A DNA stretch of 64,000 nt from Sphingorhabdus profundilacus (GTDB lineage: Bacteria > Pseudomonadota > Alphaproteobacteria > Sphingomonadales > Sphingomonadaceae): assembly GCF_009769755.1 (NCBI RefSeq), contig NZ_SDWJ01000001.1, positions 124,001 to 188,000 on the forward strand. Reading direction: 5' to 3'. Shown here in pieces: positions 6,527 to 39,148 of this stretch. The position numbers were made by a program, and so were the translations under genes. The notes beneath the pieces are model-generated. The model searched no databases, had not been told where the DNA came from, and saw only the letters and a program-made list of their open reading frames with translations. Every line of letters starts with the position of its first letter. The stretch's first letter is position 1.

Positions 6527-6554
6527 TGATTGGTTCACGTTGATTGGTTCACGC
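6527..6554. repeat. tandem duplication at the outer edge of element 1
   Basis: TGATTGGTTCACGT at 6527-6540 is followed directly by TGATTGGTTCACGC at 6541-6554. The second copy runs into the left inverted arm of GxxExxY element 1. It could be a trace of how the element end was copied. No matching duplication was seen at the other edge. Confidence 0.8.
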
Positions 6555-6996
6555 GGAGGCGCGGAGACGCGGAGGGTTTGTAGTCGTTTACCACGCGCTT
6601 AAAGCCATCAATAAGTTTAACGCCGCCAAAATTTATCAGGAGACCAACAGACTGCTTAGTAAGCCTCAGATATGTATGAAGTTGTTTGTGATGGGCAGCA
6701 TTTAAGGCGTCAACCGATTTGATTTCTATAATAAGCCAGCCGTCGACGAGCATATCGATGCGAAACGCTTCTTTGAAACACTGATCTTCAAATATGATAT
6801 CTATTGGCTTTTGCCTTTCCACACGATATCCCATGTCCGCTAGCTTTCCCGCCAGTACAATCTCGTAGACACGCTCCATTAAGCCGGGGCCAAGCTCACG
6901 GTGCAATCGAATTGCAGTATCCAGCACGTCGCCCGTTACTTTCTCGCTATCGCGCGTCTCATTCTCTCCGCGCCTCCGCGTCTCCGCGTGAACCAT
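6535..6996 (-). CDS. GxxExxY-family PD-(D/E)XK-like protein (element 1)
   Basis: A 153-residue protein with the family-defining motif GLMERVY at 38-44 and a PD-(D/E)XK-like core: Asp81, then IIEIKS with Glu91 and Lys93. The fold suggests a nuclease, but activity for the family is not established to my knowledge. The ATG at 6994-6996 lies one base after the crotonase stop, so expression may be coupled to the fab operon. The frame runs through both inverted arms, which encode the low-complexity ends (MVHAETRRRGE and PSASPRLRVNQ). It interrupts an otherwise conserved fab gene order, which suggests insertion. It is only a distant paralogue of the protein at 37505-37900. Confidence 0.85.
   Translation of the reverse strand: MVHAETRRRGENETRDSEKVTGDVLDTAIRLHRELGPGLMERVYEIVLAGKLADMGYRVERQKPIDIIFEDQCFKEAFRIDMLVDGWLIIEIKSVDALNAAHHKQLHTYLRLTKQSVGLLINFGGVKLIDGFKRVVNDYKPSASPRLRVNQST
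6545..6574. repeat. left inverted arm of GxxExxY element 1
   Basis: This 30-bp arm reads TGGTTC followed by three octamers ACGCGGAG, GCGCGGAG and ACGCGGAG. It matches the reverse complement of 6966-6995 at 28 of 30 positions. The arm is inside the reading frame of the GxxExxY gene and encodes its last residues. Confidence 0.92.
6966..6995. repeat. right inverted arm of GxxExxY element 1
   Basis: Read on the minus strand this arm is TGGTTC followed by ACGCGGAG, ACGCGGAG and GCGCGGAG. It differs from the left arm at two positions because the order of the A- and G-initial octamers is swapped. It ends 2 bp from the stop codon of the crotonase gene. Confidence 0.92.
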
Positions 6997-6997
6997 C

Positions 6998-7792
6998 TCA
7001 CTCTCCTGTAAACTTCGGCGTGCGTTTTTCCATAAACGCGTTGATGGCTTCGTCATTGTCGGCGGTGGAGTGGGCAAGGGCTTGCATCGCAGCTGACATT
7101 TCGAGGATATTTTTCAACTCTGCGGTTTGCCCTTCGCGCAAGAGACGCTTGGTCATACGGACAGCGTGGGATGGGTTGGCGGCGATTTTGTCCGCGATCC
7201 GGCGCGCGGCGCCCATCAAATCTTCTGGTGCAACTACTTCGGAAACAAGGCCGATACGCAACGCCTCCGCCGCATCAATCATTTCACCGGTGAGCGCCAG
7301 TTCAGTTGCTTTGGAAAATCCGACAATGCGCGGAAGCAGCCAAGCGCCGCCATCACCCGGTATGATGCCGAGCTTGACGAAGCTCTCCGCAAATTTGGCG
7401 TTGTCGGATGCAACACGGATATCGCACATGCACGCAAGGTCGCAGCCCGCGCCGATGGCATGACCGTTGACAGCGGCCACGACCGGAACTTCCAGTGCCT
7501 GGAATAAAAGGGGCAGGCGTTGAATGCCATATTTGTAATTCCGGCGCGTCTGGACAGACTTTGCTGAGCGGAGGCTACCGACGTCGGGCGCCATTTGCTT
7601 CAAATCTCCGCCCGAAGAAAAGGCGCTGCCTGCACCCGTCAAGATAACGCAGCCGATGGTGATGTCCTTATCCGCAGCCTCCATCGCGGCGCATAGGGCA
7701 TCCACCACATCATTGTCGGAGATGGGATTGCGCTTTTCGGGCAGGTTCAATGTTACGGTAAGGACAGCGCCATCGCGTTCTTGCAGGAGCAT
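6998..7792 (-). CDS. crotonase-family (enoyl-CoA hydratase-like) protein
   Basis: A 264-residue crotonase-fold protein lying between fabD and fabG, four bases downstream of fabD. The oxyanion-hole segments are present (AFSSGGDLKQ and GHAIGAGCDLACM). Aligned to rat mitochondrial enoyl-CoA hydratase, the two catalytic glutamates are not conserved: the first is Asp (GAGCDLACM) and the second falls on Phe in ESFVKLGIIPGDGG. It therefore belongs to an IPGDGG subgroup, and hydratase activity should not be assumed. Its substrate is unknown. Confidence 0.85.
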   Translation of the reverse strand: MLLQERDGAVLTVTLNLPEKRNPISDNDVVDALCAAMEAADKDITIGCVILTGAGSAFSSGGDLKQMAPDVGSLRSAKSVQTRRNYKYGIQRLPLLFQALEVPVVAAVNGHAIGAGCDLACMCDIRVASDNAKFAESFVKLGIIPGDGGAWLLPRIVGFSKATELALTGEMIDAAEALRIGLVSEVVAPEDLMGAARRIADKIAANPSHAVRMTKRLLREGQTAELKNILEMSAAMQALAHSTADNDEAINAFMEKRTPKFTGE

Positions 7793-36231: not shown

Positions 36232-37470
36232 ATGGCAGGTCGGAACAGCGTGATGACTTTGAACTTACGGCGGATTGTGACCGTTTCAGCTCTCGCATTG
36301 ATCGCAGCCGCTGTCCCGGCAAGCGCTGCAACTCCTGAAGAGACGGCGCGCGAGGTGCTTTCCAAAACGCCCGTGATTGACGGGCATAATGACACGCCGC
36401 ACCAGATTGCCGAGCTGTTTGATCGCGACTTTTCGAAATTCGACCTGAAGGGCCTGTCACCCGACATATTGGCCAAGACGCACACGGATATCCCTACCTT
36501 ACGCGCTGGTTTTCTGGGCGGGCAGTTTTGGTCCGTCTATGTCGACGCAGCATTGCCGAAGCATGAGGCGGTGACCCGCACCGTCGAACAGATCGACGTC
36601 GTGCGCCAGATGATCGCCCGCTACCCCGATGTCTTCGTCTATGCCGACACGGCGGCGACCGCAGAGGCGGCCATGAAGAAAGGAAAGATTGCTTCGCTCA
36701 TCGGGATGGAAGGCGGGCACTCCATTGGCAGTTCGCTGGAGATTTTGCGCCAGATGCATGCCCTTGGCGCGCGTTATATGACGATTACCCACAGCCTGAC
36801 GACCGATTGGGCGGACAGCGCCACGGACGCGCCTAAACATGACGGCCTGTCGCCTTTTGGCTTTGAAGTGATCGCCGAGATGAACCGTCTGGGGATGATT
36901 GTCGACCTCAGCCATGTGTCCGAGGCTACGATGCATGACGTGCTCGACAAAACACGTGCGCCTGTTCTGTTCACGCATAGCAATGCGCGTGCCGTAACAC
37001 CGCATCCGCGCAATGTGCCGGATTCGGTGCTGAAGCGTCTGCCGCAAAATGGCGGCGTGGTGATGGTGACCTTCGTCCCCGGCTTTACGTCGCCCGAACG
37101 CCGCCAATGGGAATATGACCGCTCGGCAGTCGCAGGCCGGGCCAAACTGGAGTTTACGGGAAATCCGGAAGGTGAAAAAGCCGCCGTCGCCACGTGGATT
37201 GCCGCACATCCCCAACCCAAGGCGACACTGGCGCAGGTCGCCGACCATATCGACCATATCCGCAAAGTGGCTGGTATCGACCATATCGGAATCGGTGGCG
37301 ATTTTGGCGGTGTGGACGAGCTACCCGTTGGTTTGGAAAATGTATCGACCTACCCGGCGCTTTTCGCCGAGTTGGTGCGGCGTGGATATTCCAAAACCGA
37401 TCTGGCGAAAATTGCCCAGGGCAATGCGTTGCGGGTAATGCGCGGTGTCGAGGCGGCGGCTGAAAAATAA
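36232..37470 (+). CDS. membrane dipeptidase (M19, renal dipeptidase family), exported
   Basis: A 412-residue zinc dipeptidase with a signal peptide ending near ASAA. Metal and substrate motifs include the HxD in VIDGHNDTPHQ, Glu in GMEGGHSIG, THSLTTDWAD, VDLSHVSE, THSNARAV and GIGGDFGG. AGGAG at 36218-36222 supports the ATG at 36232. Its TAA stop is directly followed by the left arm of GxxExxY element 2, so its own transcription terminator, if any, lies beyond or was displaced. Confidence 0.92.
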   Translation: MAGRNSVMTLNLRRIVTVSALALIAAAVPASAATPEETAREVLSKTPVIDGHNDTPHQIAELFDRDFSKFDLKGLSPDILAKTHTDIPTLRAGFLGGQFWSVYVDAALPKHEAVTRTVEQIDVVRQMIARYPDVFVYADTAATAEAAMKKGKIASLIGMEGGHSIGSSLEILRQMHALGARYMTITHSLTTDWADSATDAPKHDGLSPFGFEVIAEMNRLGMIVDLSHVSEATMHDVLDKTRAPVLFTHSNARAVTPHPRNVPDSVLKRLPQNGGVVMVTFVPGFTSPERRQWEYDRSAVAGRAKLEFTGNPEGEKAAVATWIAAHPQPKATLAQVADHIDHIRKVAGIDHIGIGGDFGGVDELPVGLENVSTYPALFAELVRRGYSKTDLAKIAQGNALRVMRGVEAAAEK

Positions 37471-37501
37471 TCTCACACGAAGACACTAAGGCACAAAGAA
37501 G
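37471..37501. repeat. left inverted arm of GxxExxY element 2
   Basis: The 31-bp arm reads TCTC, then octamers ACACGAAG, ACACTAAG and GCACAAAG, then AAG. It matches the reverse complement of 37909-37939 at 29 of 31 positions and begins at the base after the dipeptidase stop. Confidence 0.92.
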
Positions 37502-37504
37502 AGA

Positions 37505-37900
37505 TTAAGTCAGTTTTGACAGGTCGCCATTGGCGATCCGTCGCACTCCTTCTTTAAACGGTGCTCCACCGAAATTCATCTGAAGCCCAAGCGGCAAATC
37601 GAGCAATCTTAGATAGGTTAATACTTGTCGGCCATGAACGGGTGCTAATCGTTCACAAGACTTTAGTTCGATGAGCAGCTTTCCTTGGACCAGTATGTCC
37701 GCTCGAAATCCTTCGTCGAATACACGTCCATTGAAATGGATCGAAATGGGTTTTTGCCTTTCCACAGACAGCCCTCGCTCGGCGAGGCTGTCTGCCAAAA
37801 CCACTTCGTAAACGCTCTCTAATAATCCTGGCCCGAGGGCGTTATGAATTTTAAAACCGCAGTCAACAGCGACGGTTGCCAGTCTCTCTAACTCTTTCAA
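37505..37900 (-). CDS. GxxExxY-family PD-(D/E)XK-like protein (element 2)
   Basis: A 131-residue protein with GLLESVY at 25-31 and a PD-(D/E)XK-like core: Asp68, then LLIELKS with Glu78 and Lys80, the same ten-residue spacing as in element 1. It is divergent from that protein in sequence, so the two are not a recent duplication. The start appears to be TTG, with AAGAAG from the right arm serving as the ribosome-binding site seven bases upstream. It lies between two convergent genes (dipeptidase and amidohydrolase), so it needs its own promoter or read-through. Confidence 0.85.
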   Translation of the reverse strand: MKELERLATVAVDCGFKIHNALGPGLLESVYEVVLADSLAERGLSVERQKPISIHFNGRVFDEGFRADILVQGKLLIELKSCERLAPVHGRQVLTYLRLLDLPLGLQMNFGGAPFKEGVRRIANGDLSKLT

Positions 37901-37908
37901 ATTTGTAT

Positions 37909-37939
37909 CTTCTTTGTGCCTTTGTGTCTTTGTGTGAGA
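37909..37939. repeat. right inverted arm of GxxExxY element 2
   Basis: On the minus strand it reads TCTC, then ACACAAAG, ACACAAAG and GCACAAAG, then AAG. It ends 6 bp before the stop codon of the amidohydrolase gene. Confidence 0.92.
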
Positions 37940-37945
37940 CCAGAA

Positions 37946-39148
37946 TTACTCAAACCCATCCGTCAAAAACCGCTCCGCGATCGCTGCATGTAACGCCGCG
38001 CCGCGGGCCATGACGCTGTCATCGAGGACCATGCGGTTTGAATGGAGGCCGCAGCAGGAACGCCAGTCGTCGCCTTCGTGGCTGGCACCCAGGAAGAACA
38101 TCGCGCCGGGGACTTTTTCGAGGACATAGGCGAAATCTTCGGCGCCCATGATCGGCGTGTCGAGTGTGATCCAGCTTTCTTCGCCGAACATATCTTCAAC
38201 GACCGATTTTCCGAACTGGACCGCGCGCGCATCGCATAAGGTAACGGGAAATCCTGGCTCGATATGCACGTCGGCAGTGCAGCCATGGGCGGCCGCGATG
38301 TTCGGGGCGAGCCGGTGCAGATGTTCGGCCACCAGTGCCCGCTGACGGGGTGACAGAGTCCGGATCGTGCCCAGCATATGCGCGGTTTCGGGAATGATAT
38401 TGTTGGTCGTCCCCGCCGTGATCTTGGCAATGGTCACGACGGCTGGGTCGAACACAGACACGGTGCGGGTCACCATCGCCTGGATTGCGGACACTATTTC
38501 GCAGGCCACCGGGATTGGGTCGGTCGCATCATGCGGCATCGATGCATGGCCGCCTGCACCCTTGACCGTGATACTCAGCACGTCGGAGGAGGCCAGCAAA
38601 GCACCCGCTCTGCCCGTGAAAACACCGCGCGGTGCGTTCGGCATGATGTGCAGGGCAAAGGCCGCGTCGGGCAGCGGATCGATCAGGCCGTCGTCCAGCA
38701 TGAAGCGCGCGCCATGATGGCCTTCCTCGCCGGGCTGGAACATGAACTGTACGGTGCCCGCCAGTTCGTCACGTCGCGCACATAGCATCTTGGCGGCTCC
38801 CACCAGCATGGCGACATGGGTATCATGCCCGCAGGCGTGCATCGCCCCGTCGGTTGTCGAGCTATAATCCAGCCCGGTATCTTCATGAAGCGGAAGGGCG
38901 TCCATATCGCCCCGCAATAGAACCGTGCGGCCATTGGCTGGACCCTTCAACGTGGCGATCAAGCCCGTTGTTGACGGACCCTCGCGCAGTTCCAGCGGCA
39001 GACCCGCAAGCGCGGCCTTTATTTTTGCAAGGGTTTTAGGGTTTTGCAGGCCAAGTTCAGGCTCTGCATGAATAGCCCGTCGCAGTTCGACAAGATCGGG
39101 CAGTATGGCTTGGGCATCATCGTGCCAGCAGGTGTCGGTCAGGTTCAT
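37946..39148 (-). CDS. M20 family amidohydrolase (hippurate hydrolase-like)
   Basis: A 400-residue metal-dependent aminoacylase of the M20D group. The metal-binding Cys and His are in HACGHDTHVAM, with GEEGHHGARFM and MGAEDFAYVL further on. Members cleave N-acyl amino acids such as hippurate. The exact substrate is unknown. It is convergent with the dipeptidase across GxxExxY element 2. Confidence 0.9.
   Translation of the reverse strand: MNLTDTCWHDDAQAILPDLVELRRAIHAEPELGLQNPKTLAKIKAALAGLPLELREGPSTTGLIATLKGPANGRTVLLRGDMDALPLHEDTGLDYSSTTDGAMHACGHDTHVAMLVGAAKMLCARRDELAGTVQFMFQPGEEGHHGARFMLDDGLIDPLPDAAFALHIMPNAPRGVFTGRAGALLASSDVLSITVKGAGGHASMPHDATDPIPVACEIVSAIQAMVTRTVSVFDPAVVTIAKITAGTTNNIIPETAHMLGTIRTLSPRQRALVAEHLHRLAPNIAAAHGCTADVHIEPGFPVTLCDARAVQFGKSVVEDMFGEESWITLDTPIMGAEDFAYVLEKVPGAMFFLGASHEGDDWRSCCGLHSNRMVLDDSVMARGAALHAAIAERFLTDGFE

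Follow-up and report, generated by a model that had tools for sequence, protein, structure and literature searches.

Homing endonucleases with a PD-(D/E)XK fold include I-Ssp6803I, the enzyme of a cyanobacterial group I intron. The PD-(D/E)XK class of homing endonucleases has been named as such (PMC6083498), and free-standing homing endonucleases, the seg and mob genes of T4-like phages among them, are known from intronless homing (PMC2988022). A second described arrangement of an enzyme gene and its repeats is the REPIN-RAYT system (PMC3116915, PMC2817692). Here we describe a GxxExxY gene with its inverted arms (element 2) in a 64,000-nucleotide window, by which we mean the whole stretch of DNA that was analysed, and compare it with its relatives in other genomes. 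Element 2 is probably a copy of a widespread selfish element, in which a Cas4/RecB-like PD-(D/E)XK nuclease gene lies between inverted triple-heptamer arms. No earlier description of such arms was found in the open-licence literature searched, where GxxExxY is mentioned in just two papers that do not deal with arms, nor by searching with the arm letters.

The gene of element 2 (37505..37900, minus strand) encodes a protein of 131 aa from a TTG start and belongs to the GxxExxY / PDDEXK_3 nuclease family by profile matches (PF13366, E=1e-34; TIGR04256, E=6e-35) that exceed the curated cut-offs (120 bits versus 35 for TIGR04256; 119.8 versus 22 for PF13366). The inverted arms reported around it from the sequence alone (37471-37501 and 37909-37939, 29 of 31 positions matched) are real, and extension by one base gives a left arm at 37471..37502 (plus strand) that is complementary to the right arm at 37908..37939 (minus strand) in 30 of 32 positions. 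They score 54, whereas random positions in the window have a median of 16 and a 99th percentile of 24, and four octamer pairs were found where 0.01 were expected, so that chance is excluded for these arms; of the 1500 random positions, the only ones to equal this score probably correspond to the window's two elements themselves. Both arms begin with a TCTCA leader. The original description of three shared octamers holds for the right arm, which reads ACACAAAG ACACAAAG GCACAAAG on the minus strand, but the left arm consists of ACACGAAG ACACTAAG GCACAAAG. Element 2 does abut gene stops, as had been noticed: the stop codon of an M19 peptidase gene (37468..37470, plus strand) directly adjoins the left arm (0 bp), and that of an M20 amidohydrolase gene (37946..37948, minus strand), which has the same orientation as the nuclease gene, is 6 bp from the right arm.

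The same layout is present in element 1 (6546-6994), with a left arm at 6546..6574 (plus strand; GGTTC leader, ACGCGGAG GCGCGGAG ACGCGGAG), a right arm at 6966..6994 (minus strand; GGTTC leader, ACGCGGAG ACGCGGAG GCGCGGAG), and a GxxExxY domain core at 6592..6942 (minus strand). The core is inside an open frame (6535-7077, minus strand) that runs through both arms. The leader of its upstream arm contains an ATG, so in some members translation may take in the heptamers and yield an RRG-rich tail. The proteins of the two elements are 47% identical and thus divergent, in agreement with the sequence-only reading. The source genome has four GxxExxY genes in total, all with inverted purine-rich arms (4/4), and about 20 octamer arrays, mostly gene-less, where a reversed-pattern control yielded none. 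In the fourth copy (L004, C1:688757) the arm letters differ and are of the CTAGAAGGAAGAAGGCGAAAAGG type; a gene-less stretch resembling this arm occurs in L016 near locus position 1810. Two arrays (L017 and L024, C2:1029197 and 1025118) are outward-facing arm pairs, the reverse of the usual layout, with leaders that face each other across 12-17 bp; the L024 pair is shared with G153 and missing in G168. Three heptamer hairpins (L005, L009, and L010; C1:98722, 825000, and 830390) are nested in a second palindromic repeat family, GTCATTCCCGC...GGGAATCCATGG, and comparable nesting is seen in G297 (L304-L314) within GGGGCCAGGGCT...AGCCCTGGCCCC.

The window protein was modelled by AlphaFold (pLDDT 94, pTM 0.88). 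A fold search returned Cas4 SSO0001 (PDB 4ic1) as its top match (E 1.3e-3, prob 1.0), followed by MGME1, a Holliday junction resolvase, and lambda exonuclease, all at weak E-values; a PDB sequence search with the protein gave no match. Residues E28, D68, E78-x-K80, and Q92-x3-Y96 are invariant or nearly so among 64 sequences. With this D, ExK, and Q-x3-Y pattern the modelled protein is a predicted PD-(D/E)XK nuclease of the Cas4/RecB type. It differs from Cas4 proper, as no conserved cysteines for an Fe-S cluster are present in two family alignments. Most measurable pairs have dN/dS values of 0.03-0.09 (0.28 in a pair related by recent transfer), so the gene is evidently maintained for a functional protein, presumably a nuclease.

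To place these arms in the wider family, we collected loci from the source genome (4), a Pseudomonadota sample (29), the source family (27), and a genome-wide scan spanning more than 12 phyla (80). A tree was built from 140 proteins, and 136 loci had enough flank for the family tests. Inverted arms scored above the 99th percentile of control flanks taken 500 bp further out in 111 of the 136 loci. Motif learning on the flanks arrived at the heptamer CRCNRAG, occurring three in a row with spacers of 1-3 nt; such triple heptamers are present on both flanks at 93 loci, on one flank at 20, and on neither at 23 (~17%), several of which have inverted arms with other letters. Periodic inverted arms, first noticed in two copies, are a property of most of the family. 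A strict 8-bp period is excluded: with spacers of 1 to 3 nt, heptamers in the family repeat every 8, 9, or 10 bp, and the 8-bp period of the initial proposal is retained as the state of one large sub-clade. Spacer lengths of left and right arms are equal in 72 of the 93 two-armed loci, versus 27 expected. When left and right units are paired by position, they match slightly better than permuted units (1725 versus 1700.5, sd 9.6), which indicates that the repeat grammar counts more than exact pairing. Hairpin pairing as the sole constraint is thus weak, as agreement between units is nearly as good across positions as within a position.

Arm type tracks protein clade. The leader class, defined by the two letters that precede the first heptamer (AC or CA type), requires a single change on the protein tree across 79 loci, compared with a mean of 26 and a minimum of 20 when shuffled, and the spacer class requires 33 changes versus 48.6. 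The co-variation anticipated between arm sequence and protein clade is thus found. Arms and gene travel together, so this co-variation is a sign of a functional unit and no proof of binding; part of it could be joint inheritance of arms and gene.

Insertion and decay can be followed at individual sites. The element 2 site is empty in many species of the source genus, where the M19 stop almost adjoins the M20 stop. G175 has an intact copy, and G165 an inverted one in which the gene is a pseudogene but the arms are intact; G162 and G178 show internal deletions, and remnants are found in others. Element 1 occurs in both G000 and G153 (97.4% identical, dN/dS 0.03) and absent from G152, G168, G165, G175, and G157; empty sites were also seen for a third full element and two gene-less copies. 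Empty junctions are tight, for example TAATG or ATGA overlaps, and filled junctions gain the element plus 15-35 bp, within which, judging from the sequence, the downstream gene appears to acquire a new ribosome-binding site. Five comparisons of filled and empty sites revealed no target-site duplication.

Lateral transfer into the same site is seen at the trpD-trpC junction. Among 53 genomes of one family (that of G112), this junction holds 22 full-size elements, 10 of intermediate size, and one of 2.7 kb, and is empty in 20; heptamer hairpins, belonging to several arm types, account for seven of the 10 intermediates. GxxExxY distances at this junction are uncorrelated with those of TrpC (r=-0.09) and TrpD (r=-0.04). 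In one pair of loci from two species (L026 and L124), trpD and trpC are 74-81% identical and the element 92-96%, with the stretch of high identity reaching from the final trpD codons to just beyond the right arm. This step in identity implies that the element entered the shared junction without the genes on either side; the spread is lateral, to the same site, and with short co-converted flanks, as for homing endonucleases, in the one recent event that was dissected in detail. Pure vertical inheritance at trpD-trpC is rejected by the uncorrelated distances and by this transfer. At fabD-fabG, GxxExxY distances correlate with those of FabG (r=0.37, p=0.0075), indicating that inheritance there is partly vertical, and much of it may be.

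This congruence with FabG is also what would be expected of a strict transposon, in which the arms are the ends and the nuclease itself excises or nicks the element, with a double-strand or single-strand hairpin intermediate, for insertion at other gene junctions; sites held in common would then have been inherited vertically, with losses. The inverted arms at its termini, the gene-less copies, and the slight excess of left/right positional pairing over permutation are in keeping with such an element, as is the occurrence of one protein clade at several sites (fabD-fabG, saccharopine dehydrogenase/nspC, and, for L096, elsewhere). However, no target-site duplication was seen in the five site comparisons, the protein has no strand-transfer domain, and the lone same-junction transfer and the uncorrelated trpD-trpC distances fit homing better. 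Further, the element has a single gene, matching PF13366 only, and no known transposase class of the kind that defines insertion sequences and MITEs. We therefore regard a strict transposon as unlikely, though deserving of serious consideration.

Site statistics were compiled for the 93 two-armed elements, with genes called by a simple longest-ORF rule. On the upstream side 70 of them face a gene 3' end, compared with 21 on the downstream side (p=2.5e-7); the median distance from the upstream stop to the outermost heptamer is 12 bp, and a facing stop lies within 20 bp in 55 of 93, compared with a null of ~20%. The proposed association with stop codons thus extends to the family as a whole. The same flanks recur across genera, with 14 loci at trpD/trpC and 11 at fabD/fabG (element 1 included; 11 genera), and smaller groups at saccharopine dehydrogenase/nspC, ribF/ileS, sufB/sufC, pheA/hisC, and homoserine dehydrogenase/phosphoglycerate mutase; neighbour names were read from translations and were profile-checked for the neighbours of element 2 only. 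This conservation of sites across genera weakens random transposon insertion as an explanation. In one genome (G258, C8:295057-297936), two GxxExxY elements (L104 and L118) flank a single fabG. The nuclease gene is mostly in sense orientation to the upstream gene and often inside core operons, so that members are intergenic, sense-oriented, and between conserved genes, as is typical of free-standing homing endonucleases.

Sense orientation within operons, arms that are able to pair, and the retention of gene-less hairpins at trpD-trpC could also point to a host-useful mRNA module, in which a hairpin formed by the arms within the polycistronic transcript is the place where the operon mRNA is processed, by the nuclease or by RNases of the host. 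Presence is nevertheless patchy, relatives have clean stop/start overlaps, arms are present at non-operon sites too, and the predicted fold is that of DNA nucleases of the Cas4/RecB type, which together make this explanation very improbable.

Arm copies without a gene are dispersed through many genomes. These gene-less arrays form hairpins of ~60-185 bp and outnumber gene copies. In form they resemble REPINs, which are dispersed inverted doublets of a gene's flanking repeat. Their type matches the resident GxxExxY clade in a double dissociation between two families: AC-type, 2/3-spaced arrays are present in 19 of 20 genomes of G112's family and in none of 20 of the source family, and TC-type, 1/1-spaced arrays in 17 of 20 source-family genomes (up to 152 in a single genome) and in one of 20 of G112's family. 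A gene-less size class of ~146 bp (L284-L291, L293, and L296) occurs in several genera and bears GCGGCGAAGCCGC / GCGGCTTCGCCGC palindromes in the interior that its heptamer arms enclose. Five genomes (G260, G263, G284, G194, and G213) contain 9-34 heptamer arrays with no GxxExxY gene detected; these arrays may be relics or the product of another trans factor.

Such array-rich, gene-free genomes, and the REPIN-like form of the hairpins, would be compatible with GxxExxY being a passenger gene while an unrelated transposase, such as RAYT, moves the hairpins. The Y1 transposase (PF01797), however, is absent from the source genome and from G234, G246, G258 (95 arrays), G270, G280, and G293, so RAYT is not required, and its absence from the source genome rejects it as the hairpin mover there. 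The dissociation of arm types by resident GxxExxY clade and the enclosure of the gene by arms in many phyla likewise argue against a passenger, which we hold to be a shade less credible still than the mRNA module. An anti-phage defence nuclease is the least credible reading of all: PADLOC Cas4 and RT-associated PDDEXK models are each weakly matched by up to 8 of 64 members, but the window protein matches none of the PADLOC defence models, the neighbours are housekeeping genes, and the family is scattered at core operon junctions. Carriage by phages and plasmids is uncommon (0 of 50,697 phages, 7 of 72,556 plasmids, and one viral contig), and the element is rejected as phage cargo by its absence from those phages.

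Empty sites, deletion derivatives, the lone lateral transfer, gene-less copies, and arms that follow the protein clade all uphold the minimal mobile or selfish unit that the sequence-only reading had suggested. In the mechanism we propose for this selfish element, the predicted nuclease would recognise the arms, in duplex form or folded into a hairpin or cruciform, and make a break. Host recombination would repair this break with the element as template, so that the empty allele gains a copy in a homing-like manner. Dispersed arrays would arise by rare copying to new gene junctions and by action in trans on gene-less hairpins. The nuclease gene is probably transcribed from the upstream gene, and this, with the apparent new ribosome-binding site for the downstream gene, may be how host operons tolerate the insert. 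It is possible, although we propose it only tentatively, that these elements form a class of mobile DNA of their own: a Cas4-like nuclease would cut triple-heptamer hairpins or cruciforms, driving both homing of its gene and trans dispersal of hairpins, and would target operon stop/start junctions.

A selfish element of the kind proposed here would assign a role to the large, widely annotated, and unexplained GxxExxY family and would account for a tandem-heptamer hairpin class present in many bacterial genomes. It would also show that chromosomes have an equivalent of the intronless homing of phages, directed at junctions in essential operons. With an arm code that is specific to clades, protein/DNA specificity is open to direct test, and trpD-trpC offers ready-made filled, empty, and decayed alleles within one family.

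Among known systems, the element is most likely homing-like in its spread and REPIN-like in its gene-less copies, and a member of neither kind. Like the free-standing homing endonucleases of T4-like phages, GxxExxY is a lone, sense-oriented nuclease gene at junctions of conserved genes, often promoterless and patchy in distribution, and spread with short co-converted flanks (PMC2988022). The T4 enzymes, however, are GIY-YIG or HNH and phage-borne, whereas GxxExxY is PD-(D/E)XK and chromosomal, with inverted heptamer arms and gene-less hairpin progeny that are missing from the T4 homing description. Cutting of the empty allele is part of the definition of homing, for which GxxExxY is a candidate. 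I-Ssp6803I is likewise PD-(D/E)XK, a likeness at the broad superfamily level only, but is intron-encoded and is not known to have arms or gene-less copies. Cas4/RecB (SSO0001, 4ic1) is the best fold match and shares the E, D, ExK, and QxxxY pattern; GxxExxY proteins differ from Cas4 in their size (~117-131 aa), in lacking the conserved Fe-S cysteines, and in having no cas locus in the neighbourhoods read. With REPIN-RAYT, GxxExxY shares a low-copy enzyme gene with inverted flanking repeats and many gene-less inverted doublets. The RAYT enzyme is a Y1 HUH transposase, of which the source genome has none, whereas the GxxExxY gene matches PF13366 and is of the PD-(D/E)XK type, and the REPIN repeat is a REP palindrome where that of GxxExxY is a heptamer array.
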